The notes under the pieces: generated by a model
What the model saw: the letters and a program-made list of their open reading frames with translations, nothing else
Told to the model about the DNA's origin: nothing
Database searches by the model: none
Source: Flavobacterium flevense
Lineage (GTDB): Bacteria > Bacteroidota > Bacteroidia > Flavobacteriales > Flavobacteriaceae
DNA length: 64,000 bases
Assembly: GCF_900142775.1 (NCBI RefSeq)
Contig: NZ_FRCC01000009.1
Span: forward strand, 1-64,000
Direction of reading: 5' to 3'
Shown: positions 4,603 to 29,453 of the stretch, piece after piece
Layout of the letters: the number at the start of each line of letters is the position of its first letter
How positions within the stretch are numbered: the stretch's first letter is position 1
Position numbers and translations under genes: made by a program

Positions 4603-6672
4603 ATGAAGAAGAACGTATTTCTTTCGTTATTTGCTTTTGCAAGTTTTTGTACGGCAAATGCTCAGTCTTATTTAGGTTACACACCCGATAATTATGCAGG
4701 TGTTCAAAGTGTATTATACAATCCGGCGTCTATAGCTGATTCCCGTTTTAAAGCAGATATTAATTTATTCTCAATTAGTTCATCTGTGGCTAACGATTTG
4801 TATGGCGTTAAGATTTTTGATGTTTTTAAAGACGGATATGATTTTGATTTAGAAGCTAAAAAGAATTTTAGCAATGCCAATAATGGTTTTATGAATACCG
4901 ATATTATGGGGCCATCGGTTATGTTTAACATCGCCCCTAAACATTCATTAGCAATATATACCAGAGCAAGAGCTTTTATGAATGTTCTTGATGTTAATGG
5001 AAATGTAGTAAATGAACTTTCTAAAGATAATAAAACTAACTTTGATTATCCGGTAGGAAGCCCAAATGCAGTAGGAAATTCATGGGGTGAATTCGGGATT
5101 TCTTATGCTGCTGTTTTGTTTCAAAGAGGAGAGCATTTCTTAAAAGGAGGTATTACTGCTAAATATTTACAAGGAGTAGCTAATTACCATTTACAGGGAA
5201 CTAATATTAATCTGGAATTTCAGGAGAATGTACTTTTTCCTGAGCAAAGTCAATATGTGAGTGAAGGAACAGCTATTTATGGCTCAAGCCAGGATTTTGC
5301 TGATAATTCAGATGTTGAAATAAATTCAAAGTCAAGAGGTTATGGTCTTGATTTAGGATTGGTTTATGAATGGAGACCTGAATATTCTGCTGAAAGAGCT
5401 GATATTAATGACTTAAAGGAAGTAAACAAATACAAGTTGCGTTTTGGTCTTTCTGTTACTGATTTAGGATCTATGAAGTATGCGGATGGTATTCGTAGAA
5501 ATTATGATTTAAATGAAACAATTACTCAGAATGAATATGATAATGCAGATAGTTTTGACGAGTTTTTGGAAGACAATTATGATTTTACAGTTGTAAATGG
5601 AGGGGTAAAAGCATACTTGCCAACAGCTATTCATGCTGATGTAGACTGGAATATCCATAGAAAATTTTATTTGAATGCTAATGCTGATTTTGGTGTAGTA
5701 AGTAAAACAAAATTAAACCAAAACAGTATTGCTAACCGTGTGAGTTTGACTCCTCGTTTTGAATCAAAATGGTTTAGTGCTTATGTTCCAATTTCGTATA
5801 TGGATTATAGTAAGCAGGCACAAGTGGGCTTAGGATTAAGAACAGGAGTATTTTTTATAGGATCTGGTTCGATAATTTCTAATGCTATTTCAAAAAGCTC
5901 GAGAGCTGCCGATATTCATTTAGGAATGAAAATCCCTATTTATCAAAAAAAGGCCAAGGATAAAGATCAGGATGGAGACGGAGTTTTAGATAAAGATGAT
6001 GAATGTCCTGCTGTTGCCGGCCCTGTTGAGAACAAAGGTTGTCCATGGGAAGACAAAGATAATGATGGCGTTCTAGACAAAGATGATGCATGTCCTGCTG
6101 TTGCCGGTCCTGCTGCCAACAAAGGTTGTCCATGGGAAGACAAAGATAATGATGGCGTTTTAGACAAAGATGATAAATGTCCTGAAGTTGCCGGACCAAA
6201 AGAAAACAACGGATGTTTATGGCCGGATACGGATGGAGACGGAGTTGCAGATAAAGATGATAAATGTCCAAAAGTAAAAGGAACTTTAGCAAACAAAGGT
6301 TGTCCGGAAGTAACTACGGAGGTAATTAAAAAATTAAATGATTTCTCTAAGTCCGTTTTATTTGATTCTTCTAAAGCTACTATTAAACCTGAATCTCATG
6401 ATAAATTAGAAGGAATTGTAAAAGTAATGGATGAATACAATAATGCTAATTTTAAATTGGAAGGACATACTGACAGTACTGGTAATGAGGCTAAAAATCT
6501 TCAGTTATCTAAGGACAGAGCAGCTGCAGTTAAAGATTATTTGATTGCTAAAGGCATTAGTGCTGACAGACTTTCATCAGAAGGATATGGTATTACTAAA
6601 CCAATAGCTACTAACAAAACGGTTGAAGGAAGAGCTCAAAACCGCCGGGTTGAGATTATTTTAATTAAATAA
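4603..6672 (+). CDS. OmpA-family outer membrane protein with DUF5723-like barrel and TSP3 repeats
   Basis: A 689-residue envelope protein. A signal peptide (residues 1-20, cut after ANA) precedes a long beta-rich region, about 21-440, starting [26 protein letters not shown]. This resembles the Bacteroidota DUF5723 barrel. Four calcium-binding thrombospondin type 3 repeats of the form DxDGDGVxDKDDxCP then lead to the C-terminal OmpA domain (about 575-689; [30 protein letters not shown]), which binds peptidoglycan. The protein therefore probably links the outer membrane to the cell wall through a rigid calcium-stabilised spacer. Two neighbouring repeats are nearly identical at DNA level. It is monocistronic, with terminators on both sides. 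Confidence 0.88.
6034..6207 (+). repeat. Two 87-bp tandem repeats inside the TSP3 region
   Basis: Units 6034-6120 and 6121-6207 begin with the same AAAGGTTGTCCATGGGAAGA block and stay nearly identical for about 55 bases. Each encodes 29 residues ([18 protein letters not shown] then a variable tail). The 29-residue period keeps the frame, so unit number could change without breaking the gene. Confidence 0.85.
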
Positions 6673-18027: not shown

Positions 18028-18064
18028 TATATTTGTTTAATGTTATTTATAAATAGATGAACAA
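18028..18064 (+). promoter_or_regulatory. merR promoter with half-degenerate TTGTTTAA-N16 operator
   Basis: The -7 element TATATTTG (18028-18035) overlaps TTGTTTAA (18033-18040). Exactly 16 bases later ATGAACAA (18057-18064) matches six of eight positions of the partner half TTAAACAA and includes the start codon. The arrangement copies the crtI and tetR/TIGR01777 operators in spacing, suggesting autoregulation by the B12-binding regulator. Confidence 0.5.
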
Positions 18065-18953
18065 TATAAAAAATGTTTTTAGTATCAAAGACCTTGAAAA
18101 TTTGTCAGGGATTAAAGCACATACCATTCGGATATGGGAAAAAAGATATCAAATTCTGGAACCCATGCGAACGGATACTAATATAAGATTGTATGATTTA
18201 GTGAGTTTGCAAAAACTGCTTAATATTACTTTTTTACATAATTACGGCTATAAAATATCCAAAATAGCGACCTACAAAGAAGATGAAATCCCGGAGTTAG
18301 TCAGTCAGATTGTATCCGTTAAAAATTCCCGAAATCATGCATTAAGTGCTTTTAAAATGGCAATGATGAATTTTGATCAGCAATTGTTTTTTAATACGTA
18401 TGACTGGTTAGCTGCCGAAAAATCTTTTCAGGAAATTTTCTTAGATGTCTTTATTCCTCTTTTGGAAGAAATTGGGGTTTTATGGCAAACAGACACCATT
18501 ACTCCGGCTCATGAGCATTTTGTAAGCTATTTAGTACGTCAGAAAATAGTTCTGAATTCAGAAAAACTTCAGGTTTTAAATCCTACCCGGTTGGATAAAG
18601 TTTTTGTCTTGTCACTTCCGTTGAATGAAATTCACGAACTGGGACTAATGTATCTGCATTATGAAATACTTTCTAAAGGGTATAAAAGTATCTATTTAGG
18701 TGAAAGTATGCCTATCCAAAATTTGAAAGATCTGAAAAAGCATTTTGAAAATATTGTCTATGTTTCTTATTTAACTATAAAACCGGACAGAGATCAGGTA
18801 AATGAGTATGTTGAAGAAATGGTGGCGGAGTTACAAGACGATACCACCGAATTATGGTTTATAGGGCGATTGGCTTCATTAATTAATTCAGAAAAAGTAA
18901 CAGATAAGATTACGGTAGTTGATTCCATTTTGGATTTTAGTTACAAGTTGTAA
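18057..18953 (+). CDS. MerR-family B12-dependent photoreceptor regulator (CarH/LitR type)
   Basis: A 298-residue regulator. Residues 6-75 are a MerR-type winged helix (FSIKDLENLSGIKAHTIRIWEKRY). A four-helix cap follows, with the W-x9-EH motif (Trp143, Glu153, His154) that covers the upper face of adenosylcobalamin in CarH. The Rossmann B12 domain then carries E-x-H-x-x-G (Glu191, His193, Gly196), His193 being the expected lower cobalt ligand. In characterised relatives the dark form is a DNA-bound repressor and light breaks the cobalt-carbon bond and releases it. It heads a cluster of carotenoid genes and a photolyase, the classic targets. Light regulation is inferred from motifs and context. 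Confidence 0.9.
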   Translation: MNNIKNVFSIKDLENLSGIKAHTIRIWEKRYQILEPMRTDTNIRLYDLVSLQKLLNITFLHNYGYKISKIATYKEDEIPELVSQIVSVKNSRNHALSAFKMAMMNFDQQLFFNTYDWLAAEKSFQEIFLDVFIPLLEEIGVLWQTDTITPAHEHFVSYLVRQKIVLNSEKLQVLNPTRLDKVFVLSLPLNEIHELGLMYLHYEILSKGYKSIYLGESMPIQNLKDLKKHFENIVYVSYLTIKPDRDQVNEYVEEMVAELQDDTTELWFIGRLASLINSEKVTDKITVVDSILDFSYKL

Positions 18954-18987
18954 TTTTGTTTAATATTTTTGTATATTTGTTAAACAA
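18948..18987 (+). promoter_or_regulatory. crtI promoter with perfect inverted-repeat operator
   Basis: TTG (18948-18950), a 21-base spacer and TATATTTG (18972-18979) form a good Bacteroidota promoter. TTGTTTAA (18956-18963) and its exact reverse complement TTAAACAA (18980-18987), 16 bases apart, bracket the -7 element. The ATG follows at once, so the transcript has an extremely short leader. The right half is also the core of a 15-base palindrome (18975-18989). A bound regulator would block the polymerase. Confidence 0.65.
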
Positions 18988-20457
18988 ATGAGAAAGAAAA
19001 TTACAATAATAGGATCTGGTTTTTCAGCATTATCCGCTGCTTGTTATCTGGCAAAAAGTGGTCATGAAGTGCTGGTGTTTGAAAAAAATAATGCTGTAGG
19101 AGGAAGAGCTAGGCAATTAAAAAAAGACGGTTTTACTTTTGATATGGGACCAAGTTGGTACTGGATGCCTGATGTTTTTGAGCGTTTCTTTGCCGATTTT
19201 GGAAAAAAAACAACCGATTATTATGAGCTTATAAAATTGTCTCCGGCTTATCGGGTCTATTTTGGAGTGAATGATTTCATTGCTATTGCTGATAATCCGG
19301 ATGAAATTGTTGCCACTTTTGAAAATATTGAAAAGGGCAGCGGAAAACAACTTCGGGAGTTTATTGCCGAGGCTAAAAGTAATTATGATATTGCAATTAA
19401 GGACTTAGTGTATCGCCCGGGAGTTTCTCCATTAGAATTAGTGACGGTAGAAACAGCTAAAAAAATAGGACAGTTTTTTAGCAACATCAGTCGGGATGTT
19501 AGAAAGAAATTTAAAAACGAAAAGCTTATTCAAATTTTAGAATTTCCTGTTTTGTTTCTTGGCGCTAAGCCATCTGATACGCCTTCTTTTTATAGTTTTA
19601 TGAATTATGCCGACTTTGGTCTCGGAACCTGGCATCCTAAAACGGGAATGTTTGATGTGGTGAGAGCCATGGAAAGTTTAGCCCGTGAATTAGGAGTTCA
19701 GTTTTTTGTCAATTCGAATATTGAAAAAATAATTGTCGAAAATAAAACTGCCAAAGCGATTATAGTAAACGGAGAAAGAATTGAATCTGATTTGGTTTTA
19801 AGTGGTGCCGATTACCATCACACTGAAACTTTATTGGATCAGCAATATAGAATGTATTCAGAACAGTATTGGGAAAGTCGCGTTTTTGCACCTTCTTCCT
19901 TATTGTTCTATGTTGGTTTCAATAAAAAAATAACCAATATTTCGCATCATGCCTTATTTTTTGATACTGATTTTTATCAGCATGCTAAAGATATCTATGA
20001 TGAGCCGCAATGGCCGGCTGAGCCTTTATTTTATGCTAACTTTCCTTCGTTAACTGATAAAACAGCAGCACCCGAAGGTATGGAATCAGGTTTTTTCTTA
20101 GTGCCTTTAGCGCCTGGAATTAATGATTCAGAAGCATTAAGAGAGGTTTATTTTGATAAAATAATACAACGTTTTGAGGCGATTACGCAGCAAAATATTA
20201 AAGAGAATATTATATTTAAGCAATCCTTTTGCAAAAACGATTTTGTAGAACAATACAATTCGTACAAAGGAAACGCTTATGGAATGGCAAATACTTTATT
20301 ACAAACTGCTTTTTTAAGGCCAAAACTAAAAAGTAAAAAAGTTCGTAATTTATATTTTACAGGACAATTAACAGTTCCGGGACCCGGAGTTCCTCCGGCA
20401 TTAATCTCCGGAAAGTTAGTATCTGATTTGATAGACAAACAATTTCTAAAAGTATAG
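18988..20457 (+). CDS. crtI: Phytoene desaturase
   Basis: A 489-residue FAD-dependent CrtI-type desaturase that introduces the double bonds turning phytoene into lycopene. The dinucleotide-binding motif IIGSGFSALSAACYLAKSG lies at 7-25 and continues into GGRARQLKKDGFTFDMGPSW, the usual CrtI block. The C-terminal signature LYFTGQLTVPGPGVPPALISG is complete. Length is typical. It is the first structural gene behind the operator-controlled promoter and is followed by crtB after two bases, indicating translational coupling. Confidence 0.96.
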   Translation: MRKKITIIGSGFSALSAACYLAKSGHEVLVFEKNNAVGGRARQLKKDGFTFDMGPSWYWMPDVFERFFADFGKKTTDYYELIKLSPAYRVYFGVNDFIAIADNPDEIVATFENIEKGSGKQLREFIAEAKSNYDIAIKDLVYRPGVSPLELVTVETAKKIGQFFSNISRDVRKKFKNEKLIQILEFPVLFLGAKPSDTPSFYSFMNYADFGLGTWHPKTGMFDVVRAMESLARELGVQFFVNSNIEKIIVENKTAKAIIVNGERIESDLVLSGADYHHTETLLDQQYRMYSEQYWESRVFAPSSLLFYVGFNKKITNISHHALFFDTDFYQHAKDIYDEPQWPAEPLFYANFPSLTDKTAAPEGMESGFFLVPLAPGINDSEALREVYFDKIIQRFEAITQQNIKENIIFKQSFCKNDFVEQYNSYKGNAYGMANTLLQTAFLRPKLKSKKVRNLYFTGQLTVPGPGVPPALISGKLVSDLIDKQFLKV

Positions 20458-20459
20458 TT

Positions 20460-21302
20460 ATGAAGCAATTATTTGATGATGTTTCCTTTAAATGCAGTAA
20501 ACTGGTCACAACAAACTATAGTACTTCTTTTTCGCTGGCGGTGTATATGCTTTCGCCAAGTATCAGAGATGCTATTTATAGTATTTATGGTTTTGTCCGT
20601 TTTGCTGACGAAATTGTAGATTCTTTTCATGGTTTTCAAAAAGAAGACCTGATTAAGGATTTCGAAAAAGAATATTACAAAGCCTATCATTCGGGCATTA
20701 GTCTCAATCCTATTTTGAATTCTTTTCAGCACACGGTTAAAAAGTATAATATTGATGACGATTTAATTCAGGCTTTTTTAACAAGCATGAAAATGGATTT
20801 AATTAAATTAGATTATCAATCAAAAGCGGAATACGAAGAATACATTTACGGTTCAGCCGATGTAGTGGGACTGATGTGCCTAAAAGTATTTGTAAACGGA
20901 AAAGAACATAAATATGAAACTTTAAAAGATGAAGCCATGCGATTGGGATCTGCTTTCCAGAAAGTAAATTTCCTGCGTGATTTAAGAGATGATAATCTTA
21001 TTTTGAACCGTAATTATTTTCCCGGAGTCGATTTAAATTCTTTTGATGAAAAAGCTAAAAAAGCCATCATTAACGAAATAAAAGAAGATTTTCGAATTGC
21101 TTATCAGGGAATTGTAAAATTACCTATAGAAGCTAAATTTGGCGTCTATACCGCTTATGTATATTACAAAAAATTACTGAAAAAACTGGAAAATACGCCT
21201 TGTCATGACATAGGAAATGCCAGAATCCGAGTTTCTAATTATACTAAAGCAACCCTTTTAGCCCAGTCTTTCGTGACGTACAAACTGCGAATGATTGAGT
21301 AA
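20460..21302 (+). CDS. crtB: Phytoene synthase
   Basis: A 280-residue squalene/phytoene synthase family enzyme that joins two geranylgeranyl diphosphates into phytoene. The first aspartate-rich motif is DEIVD near residue 50 (in GFVRFADEIVDSF) and the second lies in NFLRDLRDD near 178. YGSADVVGLM corresponds to the conserved region between them. The start codon lies two bases after the crtI stop, and crtZ follows after 24 bases. It is a cytosolic or membrane-associated enzyme and an obligate partner of CrtI. Confidence 0.95.
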   Translation: MKQLFDDVSFKCSKLVTTNYSTSFSLAVYMLSPSIRDAIYSIYGFVRFADEIVDSFHGFQKEDLIKDFEKEYYKAYHSGISLNPILNSFQHTVKKYNIDDDLIQAFLTSMKMDLIKLDYQSKAEYEEYIYGSADVVGLMCLKVFVNGKEHKYETLKDEAMRLGSAFQKVNFLRDLRDDNLILNRNYFPGVDLNSFDEKAKKAIINEIKEDFRIAYQGIVKLPIEAKFGVYTAYVYYKKLLKKLENTPCHDIGNARIRVSNYTKATLLAQSFVTYKLRMIE

Positions 21303-21922: not shown

Positions 21923-22384
21923 ATGAAAGTATATTCAAAACAAACCGTCCAACATGTCAATGCTACGATCGAAGAATGTTGGACTTTTTTTTCCAGTCCG
22001 GCTAATTTGCAAAAAATAACACCGCAATCCATGGGATTCAAAATCACTGATTTTGACGGAAAAAATATGTATGCAGGACAAATTATTCAATACAAAGTTT
22101 CACCACTTTTCGGAATTAAATTACCCTGGGTTACTGAAATCACTTTCGTAAAAGAAGGCAGTTATTTTATAGACGAACAGCGTTTTGGACCTTATAGTTT
22201 GTGGCATCACAAACATTTTTTTGAACCTGCTGAAAATGGTGTAAAAATGACCGACTTGGTACATTATGCTCTACCATTGGGTTTCATTGGACGCATCATG
22301 AATACCTTGGTTGTTAAAAACAAACTCAAAGAAATTTTTGAATACCGCGAGCAAAAAGTTAACGAAATATTCAATTCTAAGTAA
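21923..22384 (+). CDS. SRPBCC-fold (START-like) protein
   Basis: A 153-residue protein of the Bet v1/START fold, starting KVYSKQTVQHVNATIEECWTFF and containing SPANLQKITPQSMGFKIT and RFGPYSLWHHKHFFEP. Such domains bind hydrophobic ligands. The same domain is fused to TIGR01777 epimerases in many bacteria, and a separate TIGR01777 gene is in this island at 28539, so the two may work together. The stop codon shares one base with the photolyase start. There is no signal peptide. Ligand unknown; a pigment or isoprenoid is conceivable. Confidence 0.85.
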   Translation: MKVYSKQTVQHVNATIEECWTFFSSPANLQKITPQSMGFKITDFDGKNMYAGQIIQYKVSPLFGIKLPWVTEITFVKEGSYFIDEQRFGPYSLWHHKHFFEPAENGVKMTDLVHYALPLGFIGRIMNTLVVKNKLKEIFEYREQKVNEIFNSK

Positions 22385-23679
22385 TGACTAAAACAGCTGT
22401 TTCTTTTTTTTGGTTCCGACGCGATTTAAGGTTGGAAGATAATATTGGTTTTTACCACGCTTTAAAATCCAAATTTCCCGTTATTCCATTATTCATTTTT
22501 GACGAAGCTATTTTAGACAGTTTGCCTGAAGATGATGCCAGAGTAGGGTTTATTCATGAAACACTTTCTAAAATAAATGCAGAATTAAAGCTAACCGGAA
22601 GTTCATTATTAGTAAAAAAAGGAAAAACACAGCAAGTCTGGCAGCAGCTTATTGAAGAATTTGATATCAAAGAAGTCTTTTTCAATAAGGATTATGAACC
22701 TTATGCTAGAGAACGGGACGAAAGCATTTGTCAATTATTAGAAGCACATCAATGCATCACTTTTTCATTTAAAGATCAGGTAATTTTTGAAGAAAATGAA
22801 ATTACAAAGGCTGATGGTTTGCCTTATACGGTTTATACGCCTTATAAAAATAAATGGTTGGAAAAATTCCATCAGGAAAAACCCATTCGGGAATATAGTA
22901 CTTCGGGATTAGTTTCTAATTTATATACAAGCAATTTCAGTTTTCCATCATTAGAGCAAATCGGCTTTGTAGAAAGTCCAGTAAAAGTAAAACCGTATAC
23001 ACTTGATACTTTAGATAATTACCAGGAAACAAGGGATTTTCCAGCGGTAGATGCCACGTCTTATTTGTCGCCACATTTGCGTTTCGGAACGGTGAGTGTT
23101 CGTAAAATGGTCAATTTTGCAGTCAAAACCAATGCTGTTTTTTTGAGCGAATTAATCTGGAGAGAATTTTTTATGCAAATTCTCTATCATTTTCCTAAAG
23201 TAGTGACGCAGAATTTCAAATCAGCTTATGATGGAATTCAGTGGCGTAATAACGAAGAAGATTTCCAGCGCTGGTGTACAGGAACCACCGGTTATCCCAT
23301 GGTCGATGCCGGAATGAGACAACTTAATGAAACCGGTTATATGCACAATAGGGTTAGAATGGTTGTAGCTAGTTTTTTATGCAAACATTTGATGATTCAA
23401 TGGCAATGGGGGGAAGCTTATTTTGCTCAGAAATTACTGGATTATGATTTGTCAGCCAATGTAGGAAACTGGCAATGGGCAGCAGGAACAGGCTGTGATG
23501 CGGCACCGTATTTCAGAGTTTTTAATCCTGATATCCAACTCAAAAAGTTTGATGAAAAAGGAATCTACATCCGCAAATGGATTCCCGAATTTGATTTGGG
23601 TTATGGAAAACCCATGGTGGAACATGCTTTTGCGAGAGACAGAGCCATTGCTACTTACAAAGCCGGAATTATTAAGTGA
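22384..23679 (+). CDS. phrB: Deoxyribodipyrimidine photolyase (cryptochrome/photolyase family)
   Basis: A 431-residue flavoprotein that repairs UV-induced pyrimidine dimers using blue light. The N-terminal Rossmann domain (FFWFRRDLRLEDNIGFYHAL) would bind an antenna chromophore. The C-terminal FAD domain contains LSELIWREFFMQILYHFP, TGYPMVDAGMRQLNETGYMHNR and NWQWAAGTGCDAAPYFRVFNP, including the tryptophan electron chain. Length fits a bacterial class I CPD enzyme, though a signalling cryptochrome role cannot be excluded. Its start overlaps the SRPBCC stop (TAATG). Location behind a CarH-type regulator supports light-induced expression. Confidence 0.93.
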   Translation: MTKTAVSFFWFRRDLRLEDNIGFYHALKSKFPVIPLFIFDEAILDSLPEDDARVGFIHETLSKINAELKLTGSSLLVKKGKTQQVWQQLIEEFDIKEVFFNKDYEPYARERDESICQLLEAHQCITFSFKDQVIFEENEITKADGLPYTVYTPYKNKWLEKFHQEKPIREYSTSGLVSNLYTSNFSFPSLEQIGFVESPVKVKPYTLDTLDNYQETRDFPAVDATSYLSPHLRFGTVSVRKMVNFAVKTNAVFLSELIWREFFMQILYHFPKVVTQNFKSAYDGIQWRNNEEDFQRWCTGTTGYPMVDAGMRQLNETGYMHNRVRMVVASFLCKHLMIQWQWGEAYFAQKLLDYDLSANVGNWQWAAGTGCDAAPYFRVFNPDIQLKKFDEKGIYIRKWIPEFDLGYGKPMVEHAFARDRAIATYKAGIIK

Positions 23680-25486: not shown

Positions 25487-26170
25487 TTATATTTTAAAAC
25501 TGACAATGCCATAATCCATTTCAAAAATTTGTCCTGAAATTGATTTTGCTTTTTCTGAAATCAAGAAATCAGCCATTCCGGCAACTTCTGTTGGTTTTAA
25601 ATAGCCCTTCATAGGATGGCGTTCTGTCATGTTTTCTTTCATTCGGTCGTTTCTTAAAATATTCGAAGAAAGCGAAGTTTCAGTTATCGTAGGAGCAATG
25701 GCATTGATACGAACTACCGAAGCCAGTTCAGCTCCTAATGATTTAACCAGTCCTTCAATTCCTGCTTTTGCAGTAGCAATACTCGCATGAAAAGGCATTC
25801 CTAGTTTTGCAGCCACGGTGCTGAATAGTACAATTGATGGTTCATCTCCTTTTTTTAAAATGGGTAAATATTTCTGAATGGCTTTGACCGCTCCGATTAC
25901 ATTGATTTCAAAATCATTCCTGAAATCATCAATGCTGAGATTACCAATGGGTTTTAGATTAATAGAACCCGGACAATAAATGAGGGTATCAATGGCTTCA
26001 ATTTCCGGGAGTGCATCCTGTAGTACATCCACTGTAAAATGTTTCAGGTTAGGATGTGTAATCTCAGGTGCAGATCTACTGATGTTATACACAAAATTAT
26101 TTTCTAATTGTTTTAGCAAGATAGCACTCCCAATTCCTTTACTGCCTCCTATAATGGCGATTTTTTTCAT
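25487..26170 (-). CDS. Short-chain dehydrogenase/reductase lacking the catalytic tyrosine
   Basis: A 227-residue classical-size SDR. The cofactor motif is IIGGSKGIGSAI at 5-16, INVIGAVKAIQKYL is the dimer-helix region, and LFSTVAAKLGMPFHASIATAKAGIEGL covers the active site. The usual serine is replaced by the STV region and the YxxxK tyrosine position reads Ile (IATAK), so classical proton relay is not available. It may be a non-catalytic or altered-chemistry member, or use another residue. It is fourth in the tetR-ABC1-DUF2805-SDR run, 18 bases after the DUF2805 gene. Confidence 0.85.
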   Translation of the reverse strand: MKKIAIIGGSKGIGSAILLKQLENNFVYNISRSAPEITHPNLKHFTVDVLQDALPEIEAIDTLIYCPGSINLKPIGNLSIDDFRNDFEINVIGAVKAIQKYLPILKKGDEPSIVLFSTVAAKLGMPFHASIATAKAGIEGLVKSLGAELASVVRINAIAPTITETSLSSNILRNDRMKENMTERHPMKGYLKPTEVAGMADFLISEKAKSISGQIFEMDYGIVSFKI

Positions 26171-26467: not shown

Positions 26468-27767
26468 TTTGATATTTTAAATAATTATTGACCACGATTT
26501 TAGCTTTCAGATCAAACATCAGATTGTACAAACCAAAAAAGGTTCTGTTCATGTAAATAAAGTGTTTCGAACCACGGTTTCCATTCATTTTTTTAAGATT
26601 GGTATCTTTAGAAAAACGTTCGCCTAACTGCGCGATGTTTTCAAAAAACACTTCGTCGGAAAAATCAAAAGTTTCCGTTTGAAAAGGTTTGGTAAACAAT
26701 GACAATAAATCATAAAACATTTGCGTGAAATAAGTAATTTCTTCGGGAGTGTCATCCGTTCTGAGAATTTCTAATTCAAATAATTTTTTTCGAAAGAGTT
26801 CCTCGTCATCAATAATGTCTTTGTTAATGAGTTCGAAATACGGAATGTAAAAATCATTCGGAATTTGTTTCATACATCCAAAATCCAGAGCTACCAATTC
26901 GTTTTTATCATTAATCAGGAAATTTCCGGGATGCGGATCAGCATGTACTTTTTTAAGAACATGAATTTGATACATGTAAAAATCCCAAAGTGCTTGACCT
27001 GTTTTATTAGCAATTTCAGGATCTGAATTTTTAAATTCGGAGAGATGAACTCCTGTCATCCAGTCCATTGTAATGATTTTTTCTGAAGAAAACTCAGGGT
27101 AATATTCCGGAAAAACCAGATTTTCTATTTTTTTGCAGGCATCCACTACTTCCTGACTTTGTTTGAGTTCCAGTAAATAATTGGTTTCCTCAATTAATTT
27201 ATCTTCTACTTCTTTAAAATATTTATCAGAATCTTTTCCTTGGAGATTAAACATTCGGATCGCTATTGGTTTAACCAAAGCCAAATCAGACGAAATACTG
27301 TTAGCAACTCCGGGATATTGGATTTTGACGGCTAGTTTTTTGTTGTTTTTTACTGCCAGATGTACCTGACCGATACTTGCCGCATTGACTGAATTAGCAT
27401 TAAATTCATCAAAAATTTCATAAGGTGTTTTGCCAAAATTAGATTTGAATGTTTTTAATACTAATGGCGCCGAAAGCGGTGGAACAGAGAATTGCGACAA
27501 AGAAAATTTTTCTACATAAGCCTGTGGCAGGAAATTTTTGTCCATGCTTAGCATTTGTGCTACTTTTAACGCACTTCCTTTCAGGCTCTTTAAACCGTCA
27601 TAAATATCTTCGGCATTGTTCTCGTTTAATTTATCACGGCTTAAGTCTGAATTGACTATTTTTTCACCATAATATTTTAAATAATTCACACCTACTTTAG
27701 CTCCGGTTTGCACCAGTTTTGTGGCACGTTCAATTTTTGAAGTTGGAATATAATCGATTGTTTTCAT
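26457..27767 (-). CDS. ABC1/AarF/UbiB-family atypical kinase
   Basis: A 436-residue protein-kinase-like protein. The family-specific KxGQ-type motif appears as LKGSALKVAQMLSMD with Ala in place of Gly-Gln context, NAASIGQVHLA is the Ala-rich nucleotide loop, KKVHADPHPGNFLI is the catalytic loop and ALDFGCMKQ contains the DFG metal motif. Family members support ubiquinone and other isoprenoid lipid metabolism in ways still debated. Here it sits among carotenoid and light genes. It shares one base with the tetR stop and overlaps the DUF2805 start. Confidence 0.9.
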   Translation of the reverse strand: MKTIDYIPTSKIERATKLVQTGAKVGVNYLKYYGEKIVNSDLSRDKLNENNAEDIYDGLKSLKGSALKVAQMLSMDKNFLPQAYVEKFSLSQFSVPPLSAPLVLKTFKSNFGKTPYEIFDEFNANSVNAASIGQVHLAVKNNKKLAVKIQYPGVANSISSDLALVKPIAIRMFNLQGKDSDKYFKEVEDKLIEETNYLLELKQSQEVVDACKKIENLVFPEYYPEFSSEKIITMDWMTGVHLSEFKNSDPEIANKTGQALWDFYMYQIHVLKKVHADPHPGNFLINDKNELVALDFGCMKQIPNDFYIPYFELINKDIIDDEELFRKKLFELEILRTDDTPEEITYFTQMFYDLLSLFTKPFQTETFDFSDEVFFENIAQLGERFSKDTNLKKMNGNRGSKHFIYMNRTFFGLYNLMFDLKAKIVVNNYLKYQNEN

Positions 27768-28426
27768 TAGTTTTTTTGCATTTTTTCTTTAAAAATAAAT
27801 TTCCCAAAATCAATTAAGCTATTGATAGGTGCCACATTCATTAATTCAAAACTTAATTTCACTGATTTTTCAATATAAACATCGGTTTTTTCAAAATTAG
27901 GAGAACCGTCTTCCAGCCAGAATTTTAATGTAAACAGAAATTGAATCCAGGCACTTTCCTGAATTGCTTTCTCCTGAAATTCCTGTATTTTTTCTTGTTG
28001 CAGTCTCACTTCATCGGTGGTTATTGCGGCAATGAAATTCTTGAAATGAGTTCTTAAGTCTGAAAGCTGTATCAGGTTTTTTAACTGATTTTTGTTTTCG
28101 TTCAAACTCATGGTTACATAACTTCTGTTAGCAGCCAGCAATTCGAAAAAAGTAAAATAAAAACTTAATAGTTTACTTTTCATGTCATAAGTTTCATAAT
28201 TAGGGTCTTTAGAAAGTAATTCAACCGTTTTTTCTAAAAACATAGTATAGATTTCTTTTTCAATACTTTCTAAATTCCCAAAGAACGAATAAAATTCGGC
28301 TTCTGTAAATCCGTTTAATTTAGCAAAAAGATATACTGATTTGGGTTTTTCATTGTGTTCTAATGTGTAATCCATGTATAGGGATACAATAGTTTCCTTT
28401 GTGAGTTTTATTTTTTTAGTTGCCAT
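27767..28426 (-). CDS. TetR-family transcriptional regulator
   Basis: A 219-residue regulator. The N-terminal 50 residues (TKETIVSLYMDYTLEHNEKPKSVYLFAKLNGFTEAEFYSFFGNLESIE, shown by the blocks SVYLFAKLNG and AEFYSFFGN) form a divergent TetR helix-turn-helix, and the remaining helices form the ligand and dimer domain (LSFYFTFFELLAANRSYV). It heads the minus-strand run of five genes and is divergent from the TIGR01777 gene. The shared intergenic region holds a perfect inverted repeat that may be its own operator or that of the B12 regulator. Ligand unknown. Confidence 0.82.
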   Translation of the reverse strand: MATKKIKLTKETIVSLYMDYTLEHNEKPKSVYLFAKLNGFTEAEFYSFFGNLESIEKEIYTMFLEKTVELLSKDPNYETYDMKSKLLSFYFTFFELLAANRSYVTMSLNENKNQLKNLIQLSDLRTHFKNFIAAITTDEVRLQQEKIQEFQEKAIQESAWIQFLFTLKFWLEDGSPNFEKTDVYIEKSVKLSFELMNVAPINSLIDFGKFIFKEKMQKN

Positions 28427-28463: not shown

Positions 28464-28513
28464 TTGTTTAACTAAAATGTGTTAATGTTAAACAAAATAA
28501 CTTTGTATCTTTG
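28464..28513. promoter_or_regulatory. Divergent promoter region with TTGTTTAA-N16-TTAAACAA operator
   Basis: TTGTTTAAC (28464-28472) and GTTAAACAA (28487-28495) are exact complements; the 8-base cores are 16 bases apart, the same spacing as upstream of crtI. Two overlapping -7 elements for the plus-strand gene follow: TAACTTTG (28498-28505) and TATCTTTG (28506-28513). For tetR a -7-like TATCTTTA lies at plus 28450-28457 on the minus strand. One bound regulator could control both directions. Confidence 0.6.
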
Positions 28514-28538: not shown

Positions 28539-29453
28539 ATGAGAAAAAATATAGTAATAACCGGTGGAACAGGATTTGTGGGAAGGCATTTAACTAAATT
28601 GTTAGTAGCCAATGGCTTTTCGGTTTCTATTATGAGCAGGACTAAAAAAGTAAATACAGAAAATGTTTTTTACTATACCTGGGATGTGGAAAAACAAACT
28701 ATGGAAGAGGAAGCAGTTCAAAAAGCGGATTACATTATTCATTTGGCCGGGGCTAATATTGCAGGAAAGCCCTGGACAGATAAACGTAAAAACGAAATTG
28801 TATCGAGTAGAGAACAAACTGCCCAATTGATTTATGATACTTTGCAAAAAACGAATACGCAATTAGAAGCTTTTGTTTCAGCATCGGCGGTAGGGATTTA
28901 TGGCGCCATGAATGGTCAGGCAATTTGCCATGAAGATATGCAGCCGGCAAATGATTTTTTAGGATTGACCTGTCAAAAATGGGAAGTTGCAGCGGATGCA
29001 TTTGAAAAACTAGGAATCAGAACCGTAAAAATTCGTACTGGTTTAGTGATGGGAGAAAATGATGGTTTCTTAAAAAAATTAGCTCCCGTTTTTAAATTTA
29101 AACTCGGAGCTGCTTTAGGATCGGGAAAACAATATATGCCGTGGATTCATATTGATGATTTGTGCAGGATATATTTAGAAGCCATACAAAACCCGGAAAT
29201 GCGAGGAGCTTATAATGCGGCTGTTTCTGATGATACTACTAATGAATCATTTTCTAAGGTTTTAGCCAAGGTTTATGGATATAAATTATGGTTGCCTAAT
29301 GTGCCTTCGTTTTTGATAAAATTAGTTTTGGGCGAAATGTCAAAATTACTCTTAACAGGAAGAAGAGTTTCTGATGCAAAAATAAAGAAACTCGGTTTTC
29401 AATTTAAACATACCAATTTAGAAGCGACATTAAGAGATTGTTTGTCATTGTGA
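28539..29453 (+). CDS. TIGR01777-family epimerase (SDR39U1/YfcH-like)
   Basis: A 304-residue extended SDR. NIVITGGTGFVGRHLTKLLVANG is the cofactor motif, IIHLAGANIAGKPWTDKRKNEI is the diagnostic TIGR01777 block, ASAVGIYG and WEVAADAFEKLGIRTVKIRTGLVMG follow, and the C-terminus (VPSFLIKLVLGEMSKLLLTGRRV) is the DUF1731 tail. The substrate is unknown in general; the family is often fused to SRPBCC domains, which here is a separate gene at 21923. It ends one base before the convergent yceI-like gene. Confidence 0.92.
   Translation: MRKNIVITGGTGFVGRHLTKLLVANGFSVSIMSRTKKVNTENVFYYTWDVEKQTMEEEAVQKADYIIHLAGANIAGKPWTDKRKNEIVSSREQTAQLIYDTLQKTNTQLEAFVSASAVGIYGAMNGQAICHEDMQPANDFLGLTCQKWEVAADAFEKLGIRTVKIRTGLVMGENDGFLKKLAPVFKFKLGAALGSGKQYMPWIHIDDLCRIYLEAIQNPEMRGAYNAAVSDDTTNESFSKVLAKVYGYKLWLPNVPSFLIKLVLGEMSKLLLTGRRVSDAKIKKLGFQFKHTNLEATLRDCLSL

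Follow-up and report, generated by a model that had tools for sequence, protein, structure and literature searches.

A gene for a MerR-type regulator with a B12-binding domain lies directly upstream of the phytoene desaturase gene crtI in Flavobacterium flevense, and inverted repeats are found at the starts of both genes. Are these repeats the operators of one regulatory system, and which protein would bind them? The window analysed, that is, the whole stretch of 64,000 nucleotides, is part of contig C10 of the 4.23-Mb genome. The regulator gene, referred to here as merR (18057-18953, + strand; Pfam MerR_1 and B12-binding_2), encodes a CarH-related protein whose closest loci among named records are from Flavobacterium, at 80% identity. 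It is followed on the + strand by crtI (18988-20457; CrtID model, NCBIfam NF058655, 732.9 bits against a cut-off of 640), a gene for a crtB-type phytoene synthase (20460-21302; Pfam SQS_PSY) and, further downstream in the same direction, a photolyase-type gene (22384-23679; Pfam DNA_photolyase and FAD_binding_7). Between the latter two are genes that we take to be crtZ-like and SRPBCC-like; neither gave a family match at the cut-offs used.

Operator sites in the window

The crtI operator, TTGTTTAA-N16-TTAAACAA, was read directly from the + strand at 18956-18987 and consists of TTGTTTAA (18956-18963), a spacer (18964-18979) and TTAAACAA (18980-18987), with the -7 box TATATTTG (18972-18979, +) forming the 3' half of the spacer. 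The merR operator, TTGTTTAA-N16-ATGAACAA (18033-18064, +, also read directly), has its first half at 18033-18040 and, after 16 bases, ATGAACAA at 18057-18064, which is identical to TTAAACAA at six of eight positions and contains the start codon (18057-18059). These coordinates agree with the first-pass annotation, which had described complementary halves 16 bases apart enclosing a -7 element at crtI, and an identical first half, the same gap, a six-of-eight match and an included start codon at merR. Two of its more general statements have to be narrowed. Overlap with the start codon holds for merR, whereas the crtI ATG at 18988 only abuts the operator end and lies outside the site. Likewise, the -7 element TATATTTG is present at both genes as claimed, but it is enclosed between the halves only at crtI; at merR the box (18028-18035, +, TAnnTTTG type) overlaps the first half-site.

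A third perfect TTGTTTAA-N16-TTAAACAA site, which the annotation had left out together with the wider regulon, is located at 28464-28495 (no strand assigned) in a divergent intergenic region, adjoined by a TetR_C_23 regulator gene (27767-28426, - strand; Pfam) and a TIGR01777 oxidoreductase gene (28539-29453, + strand; TIGR01777 family match). Genes for a UbiB-like kinase, a DUF2805/TIGR03643 protein and an SDR protein are found beyond the TetR_C_23 gene. In the whole genome, TTGTTYAA-N16-HTRAACAA occurs without mismatch at five places, namely merR, crtI, 28464-28495 and a pair on contig C18, both upstream of a single gene identified by likeness as a fasciclin-type lipoprotein gene. The two C18 operators (5437-5468 and 5541-5572) are 72 bp apart.

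The -7 box is placed at -12 to -5 in the portion of PMC9723704 used here, and our +1 estimates are based on that numbering, by which the crtI site spans approximately -28 to +4 and the merR site approximately -7 to +25. The crtI transcript is predicted to start about four bases before the ATG, and would thus be nearly leaderless (18980-18988). Its 5' end is expected near 18984 and that of the merR transcript near 18040. A reading of the repeats as an RNA hairpin was rejected because the first half at crtI precedes the predicted transcript start.

Spacing and conservation of the half-sites

In the F. flevense genome, the exact inverted pair occurs at four places over spacings of 2 to 32, three of them at spacing 16. 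Across 61 genomes of the genus, this one included, 216 exact half-site pairs were found over the same spacings, of which 128 were at spacing 16; the remaining 30 spacings together held 88, so that spacing 16 is represented 44 times more often than their mean. When up to two mismatches were allowed in the F. flevense genome, the pattern was not enriched over the reversed control (99 forward and 108 reverse versus 107 and 100). Only near-exact sites are therefore meaningful in a single genome, and weaker sites were counted solely at orthologous promoters. Among the matches listed, 113 of the 121 exact N16 sites were close to the beginning of an ORF of 100 aa or more and three were internal to one; in the separate listing of neighbouring genes, five of the 121 had no start within 250 bp. 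For 10 control loci with other spacings, five were inside ORFs and six near a start. Neither a central third repeat nor an 11-bp register was found in 242 half-sites, where a same-strand TnnACA displaced by 11, 22 or 33 bases occurred in zero to two cases. The sole offset peak, at -21 (53/242), we attribute to a -7 box whose TTTG adjoins the half-site.

We scored 144 crtI promoters, leaving out one duplicate and six without an ATG. The site was exact in 44 and had one mismatch in 38, two in eight, three in six, and four or more in 48, giving 96 promoters with a site at up to three mismatches, whereas ten control spacings gave three positives in 1440 tests at up to two mismatches. TAnnTTTG directly preceded the second half in 89 of the 96. 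A core-matching site was present at 119 of 159 merR loci, and TAnnTTTG preceded 110 of these 119. The second half fell on the start codon in 109 loci, either beginning at the ATG (87) or with the ATG three bases earlier (22; ATG-ATAAACAA), and in 10 the site lay upstream of it, at -8 to -74, a distant clade contributing two of the 10. As for the other loci, 26 had no core-matching site at up to three mismatches, 10 had no usable ATG, three were duplicates and one had too little upstream DNA. Conservation at orthologous promoters, on which the first-pass annotation had staked its proposal, was thus found at both merR and crtI in many genera.

We also compared codon usage at merR starts. Here the site was defined by the first half alone (up to two mismatches, fixed distance), because demanding ACA would make the AAC count circular. 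With one locus per genus, there were 44 Met-Asn starts; codon 2 was AAC wherever the first half was present (40/40) and AAT wherever it was absent (4/4), against a background AAC usage of 33% (459/1378). When all 146 scored loci were taken together, AAC encoded the Asn that overlies the half-site in 114 of 115 cases with the first half and in four of 10 without, and TnnACA was kept in 115 of 123 second halves. Judging from this codon pattern, selection at the merR start appears to act on the DNA as well as on the protein. Preference for a particular start context may account for part of the AAC usage; counter to it, AAC was not favoured where the first half was missing.

In the distant merR clade (31-38% identity, nine loci), spacing-16 pairs use TTAGACAA or TTGGACAA in four loci (L155-L158), and a fifth (L154) has an imperfect spacing-16 pair. 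At the distant merR genes of loci L154-L157, the half-site TTAGACAT continues into the start codon (TTAGACATG) and is differently merged with the ATG. The TnnACA core is common to TTAAACAA, ATGAACAA, ATAAACAA and the TTAGACAA of the distant clade, and in view of its presence in these four sequences we regard the half-site as CarH-like.

Co-occurrence with the regulator gene and candidate targets

The co-occurrence figures that follow are raw counts of genomes in which kinship is ignored. In the genus, the 52 genomes with merR held 125 exact sites, with at least one site in 47 of them, and the nine without merR held three, in three genomes. In a family set of 100 genomes from 100 genera, the 69 with a merR ortholog held 112 sites (in 56 genomes), nine with only a distant merR homolog held five (in two), and 22 in which merR was absent or a fragment held five, all in one 81%-complete genome. 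One rhodopsin-bearing genome (G141) has a site with one mismatch and no merR match.

Could the repeats be chance products of AT-rich promoters combined with the -7 box? The lack of enrichment at up to two mismatches in the F. flevense genome and the TTTG adjoining the half-sites would fit such an origin, but the 44-fold excess at one spacing refutes it in our judgement, and conservation across genera together with the codon evidence leaves it a negligible probability. The paired half-sites are real and non-random. It is also improbable that they belong to some other DNA-binding factor, for instance the TetR_C_23 protein encoded at 27767-28426. A TetR gene is common in the family (62/100 genomes), 10 of the 121 exact sites among the matches listed adjoin TetR-cluster genes, and genome G079 has TetR and five sites with no merR found. 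Against this, sites were present in 13 of 15 family genomes with merR and without TetR (43 of 54 with both) and in none of the 20 lacking both genes (one of two with TetR alone); moreover, one site is located at the merR start itself, and the half-site changes with the merR clade. By these genome comparisons, the sites track the regulator gene rather than the TetR gene, which is disfavoured as their owner.

A set of 296 genomes spanning the phylum included 37 with an exact site. The same family accounted for 25 of these (among 30 genomes), the remainder of its order for none (six genomes), the remainder of its class for 11 (37 genomes) and all other groups for one (223 genomes). Nine out-of-family loci (L312-L320) were read. 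The site adjoins what is presumably a sigma-factor-like gene in six of them (L313, L314 and L317-L320), three of which (L317, L318 and L320) have crtI matches by tblastn and two (L317 and L318) a merR homolog of 39-40% identity. At L315 and L316 it precedes genes that we assume to be rhodopsin-like and fasciclin-like, respectively, and at L312 it precedes no gene.

To describe the regulon, neighbours of the 121 exact sites listed were clustered, and a single representative from each of eight clusters was run against Pfam. Among these sites, the neighbours included fasciclin-type lipoprotein (at least 29), crtI (at least 20), TetR (at least 10), flavin reductase (at least nine), DUF2805/TIGR03643 (at least seven), Brp/Blh and rhodopsin (at least six each), DUF2452 and TIGR01777 (at least five each) and GTP cyclohydrolase I (folE; at least four), as well as an SDR cluster (at least four), named by likeness to the window gene at 25487-26170, and smaller clusters. 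A further cluster of at least eight is presumably mnmA. The six Blh and six rhodopsin entries among the matches listed represent five intergenic regions, one of them with two sites. In the F. flevense genome, the candidate targets are merR, crtI, the TetR/TIGR01777 pair at 28464-28495 and the fasciclin-type gene on C18; Pfam gave no rhodopsin match there.

In 19 of the 61 genus genomes, Pfam identified a total of 21 rhodopsin genes scoring above its cut-off, and 20 of the genes had a scorable upstream region. An N16 site at up to two mismatches was present in 17 of the 20 upstream regions, and in the control 19 other spacings gave zero to three and spacing 6 gave 10; at up to three mismatches several spacings reach 10 to 15 of 20, and only the two-mismatch figures are relied on. 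Twelve of the 20 promoters have two such N16 sites, each at up to two mismatches (L292, L295-L298, L300, L301, L303, L304 and L306-L308). TAnnTTTG directly preceded the second half, as at crtI, in 11 of the 20 (site at up to three mismatches).

The regulator protein aligns to TtCarH (E 2e-14). Its AlphaFold2 model (pLDDT 86.2, pTM 0.81, 39 sequences) has the Rossmann strands present, and by Foldseek was closest to CarH among the matches listed. In VIA-align, the top match listed for the whole chain was CarH 5c8e_A (Z 17.3, 269 aligned, rmsd 11.2); for the B12 domain, among the matches listed, 8c37_C gave Z 17.0 (196 aligned, rmsd 2.6), and photocobilins and a Chloracidobacterium MerR protein came within 1 Z unit of CarH. 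Across 141 orthologs, the W-x9-EH motif is kept (W143 in 141, E153 in 141, H154 in 132), as is ExHxxG (E191 in 141, H193 in 141, G196 in 137). Most of the residues that contact AdoCbl (adenosylcobalamin) are present in the regulator. His132 of TtCarH is the second ligand in the light state; at the corresponding residue 144 of the regulator, the orthologs have Gln in 138 cases, His in two and Leu in one. Most orthologs have another residue in place of the second Gly of the GG motif, PF02310 (B12-binding) did not match the regulator, and the CarH equivalog model of NCBIfam gave 74.6 bits, below its cut-off of 400. We therefore call the protein CarH-related and not CarH, since His132, direct repeats and a score above that cut-off are all lacking. 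The regulator likely uses AdoCbl, and its light chemistry should differ from that of CarH. Because of the Gln at the His132 position, the GG motif change and the PF02310 miss, its use of B12 is less certain than the operator.

Proposed mechanism and comparison with known systems

The operator is real and family-wide, and its architecture is new relative to the CarH direct repeats. Our best reading, which we consider quite probable, is a CarH-related, autoregulated dark repressor acting on this architecture, where binding, repression, and light and B12 control are what we infer. Each half-site (TTAAACAA, core TnnACA) would take one DNA-binding domain, and the inversion of the two half-sites, whose starts are 24 bp apart, would set the geometry. 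Bound in this way, the regulator would cover the -7 box and transcription start of crtI, and its own transcription start and start codon. In the dark it would thereby keep light-response genes and its own gene repressed; if CarH is a guide, AdoCbl may stabilise the bound form and light may release it. Release would switch on carotenoid, photolyase-linked, pterin/flavin and fasciclin genes and, in relatives, proteorhodopsin and blh. The first-pass annotation had proposed operators of one system with promoter overlap, autoregulation and direct occlusion of RNA polymerase. The former points are strongly supported by conservation, spacing, co-occurrence and the AAC codon, and occlusion would follow from operator position. 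Counter to our best reading are the 48 of 144 crtI promoters and 26 of 159 merR loci without such a site, and the merR-less genomes with sites (3/9 in the genus and 1/22 in the family).

The same regulator may bind the sites without direct use of B12 or light, responding to another cue or through a partner protein. The replacement of His132 by Gln in 138 of 141 orthologs, the degraded GG motif, the PF02310 miss and the precedent of Myxococcus CarA, which works without B12 according to parts of PMC8156234, make this a possibility to be taken seriously, but one that we consider the less probable, as the W-x9-EH and ExHxxG residues are retained and the genome encodes a cobalamin adenosyltransferase along with two other B12-binding proteins. 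It is unlikely that the site is an activator site. Most MerR proteins do activate, at promoters with long spacers (PMC9478572, in part), and the TAnnTTTG nearest to the 28464-28495 site is downstream of it; at crtI and merR, however, the sites cover the -7 box, predicted transcription start and start codon, which argues against activation.

Taking the dark-repressor reading further, we think it rather likely that a Bacteroidota CarH-derived regulator with a fixed-spacing inverted operator governs one regulon coupling photoprotection (carotenoids, photolyase-linked) with light harvesting (proteorhodopsin, Blh), and that its own operator half is held in its first codons by DNA-level selection. 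The recurrence of the site at pigment, photolyase-linked and light-driven proton-pump genes points to one shared sunlight switch. In the sections available, a 2013 Dokdonia study stated that opsin gene control needs further work (PMC3587595), and a 2020 study of Chryseobacterium, a genus outside our direct tests, ascribed the light induction of carotenoids to a regulator it did not identify (PMC7064467). For the light control of carotenoid and proteorhodopsin genes in flavobacteria, the present site offers a candidate regulator along with a precisely defined operator and a list of targets. No paper describing the motif was found in the literature searched, in which few subscription journals were covered.

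The Nonlabens spongiae carotenoid cluster likewise has a MerR gene first and then crt genes, and no operator or regulation is described in the portion of that report available (PMC11855829). The photocobilins and the Chloracidobacterium MerR protein (8j2x, 8jbs, 8jbt), compared by fold alone, have a similar B12 domain. Classical MerR activators bind a pseudopalindrome in a long -35/-10 spacer. Here an inverted repeat is present but covers the -7 box and start; a conserved -33 element was not established at the merR and crtI promoters. Myxococcus xanthus CarA is a CarH-type repressor of carotenoid genes, with a different repeat sequence. Its operator was first assigned inverted repeats and direct repeats were later favoured (PMC9304148, in part), which calls for caution about the inverted reading here. 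The AdoCbl photoreceptor repressors CarH and LitR of Thermus thermophilus and Bacillus megaterium share with our regulator the MerR DNA domain, B12 domain and fold, the lower-axial His motif, W-x9-EH, a carotenoid target, the TnnACA contact core and promoter overlap. Published CarH operators are composed of 11-bp direct repeats (nnnnTnnACAn), three or four of them in tandem (PMC9304148 and PMC8156234, both in part); here, in contrast, there are two inverted half-sites with no 11-bp signal, Gln in place of His132, and an operator half within the regulator's own start. On this evidence, the CarH-type DNA domain, familiar from direct repeats, would also be able to work in inverted pairs.
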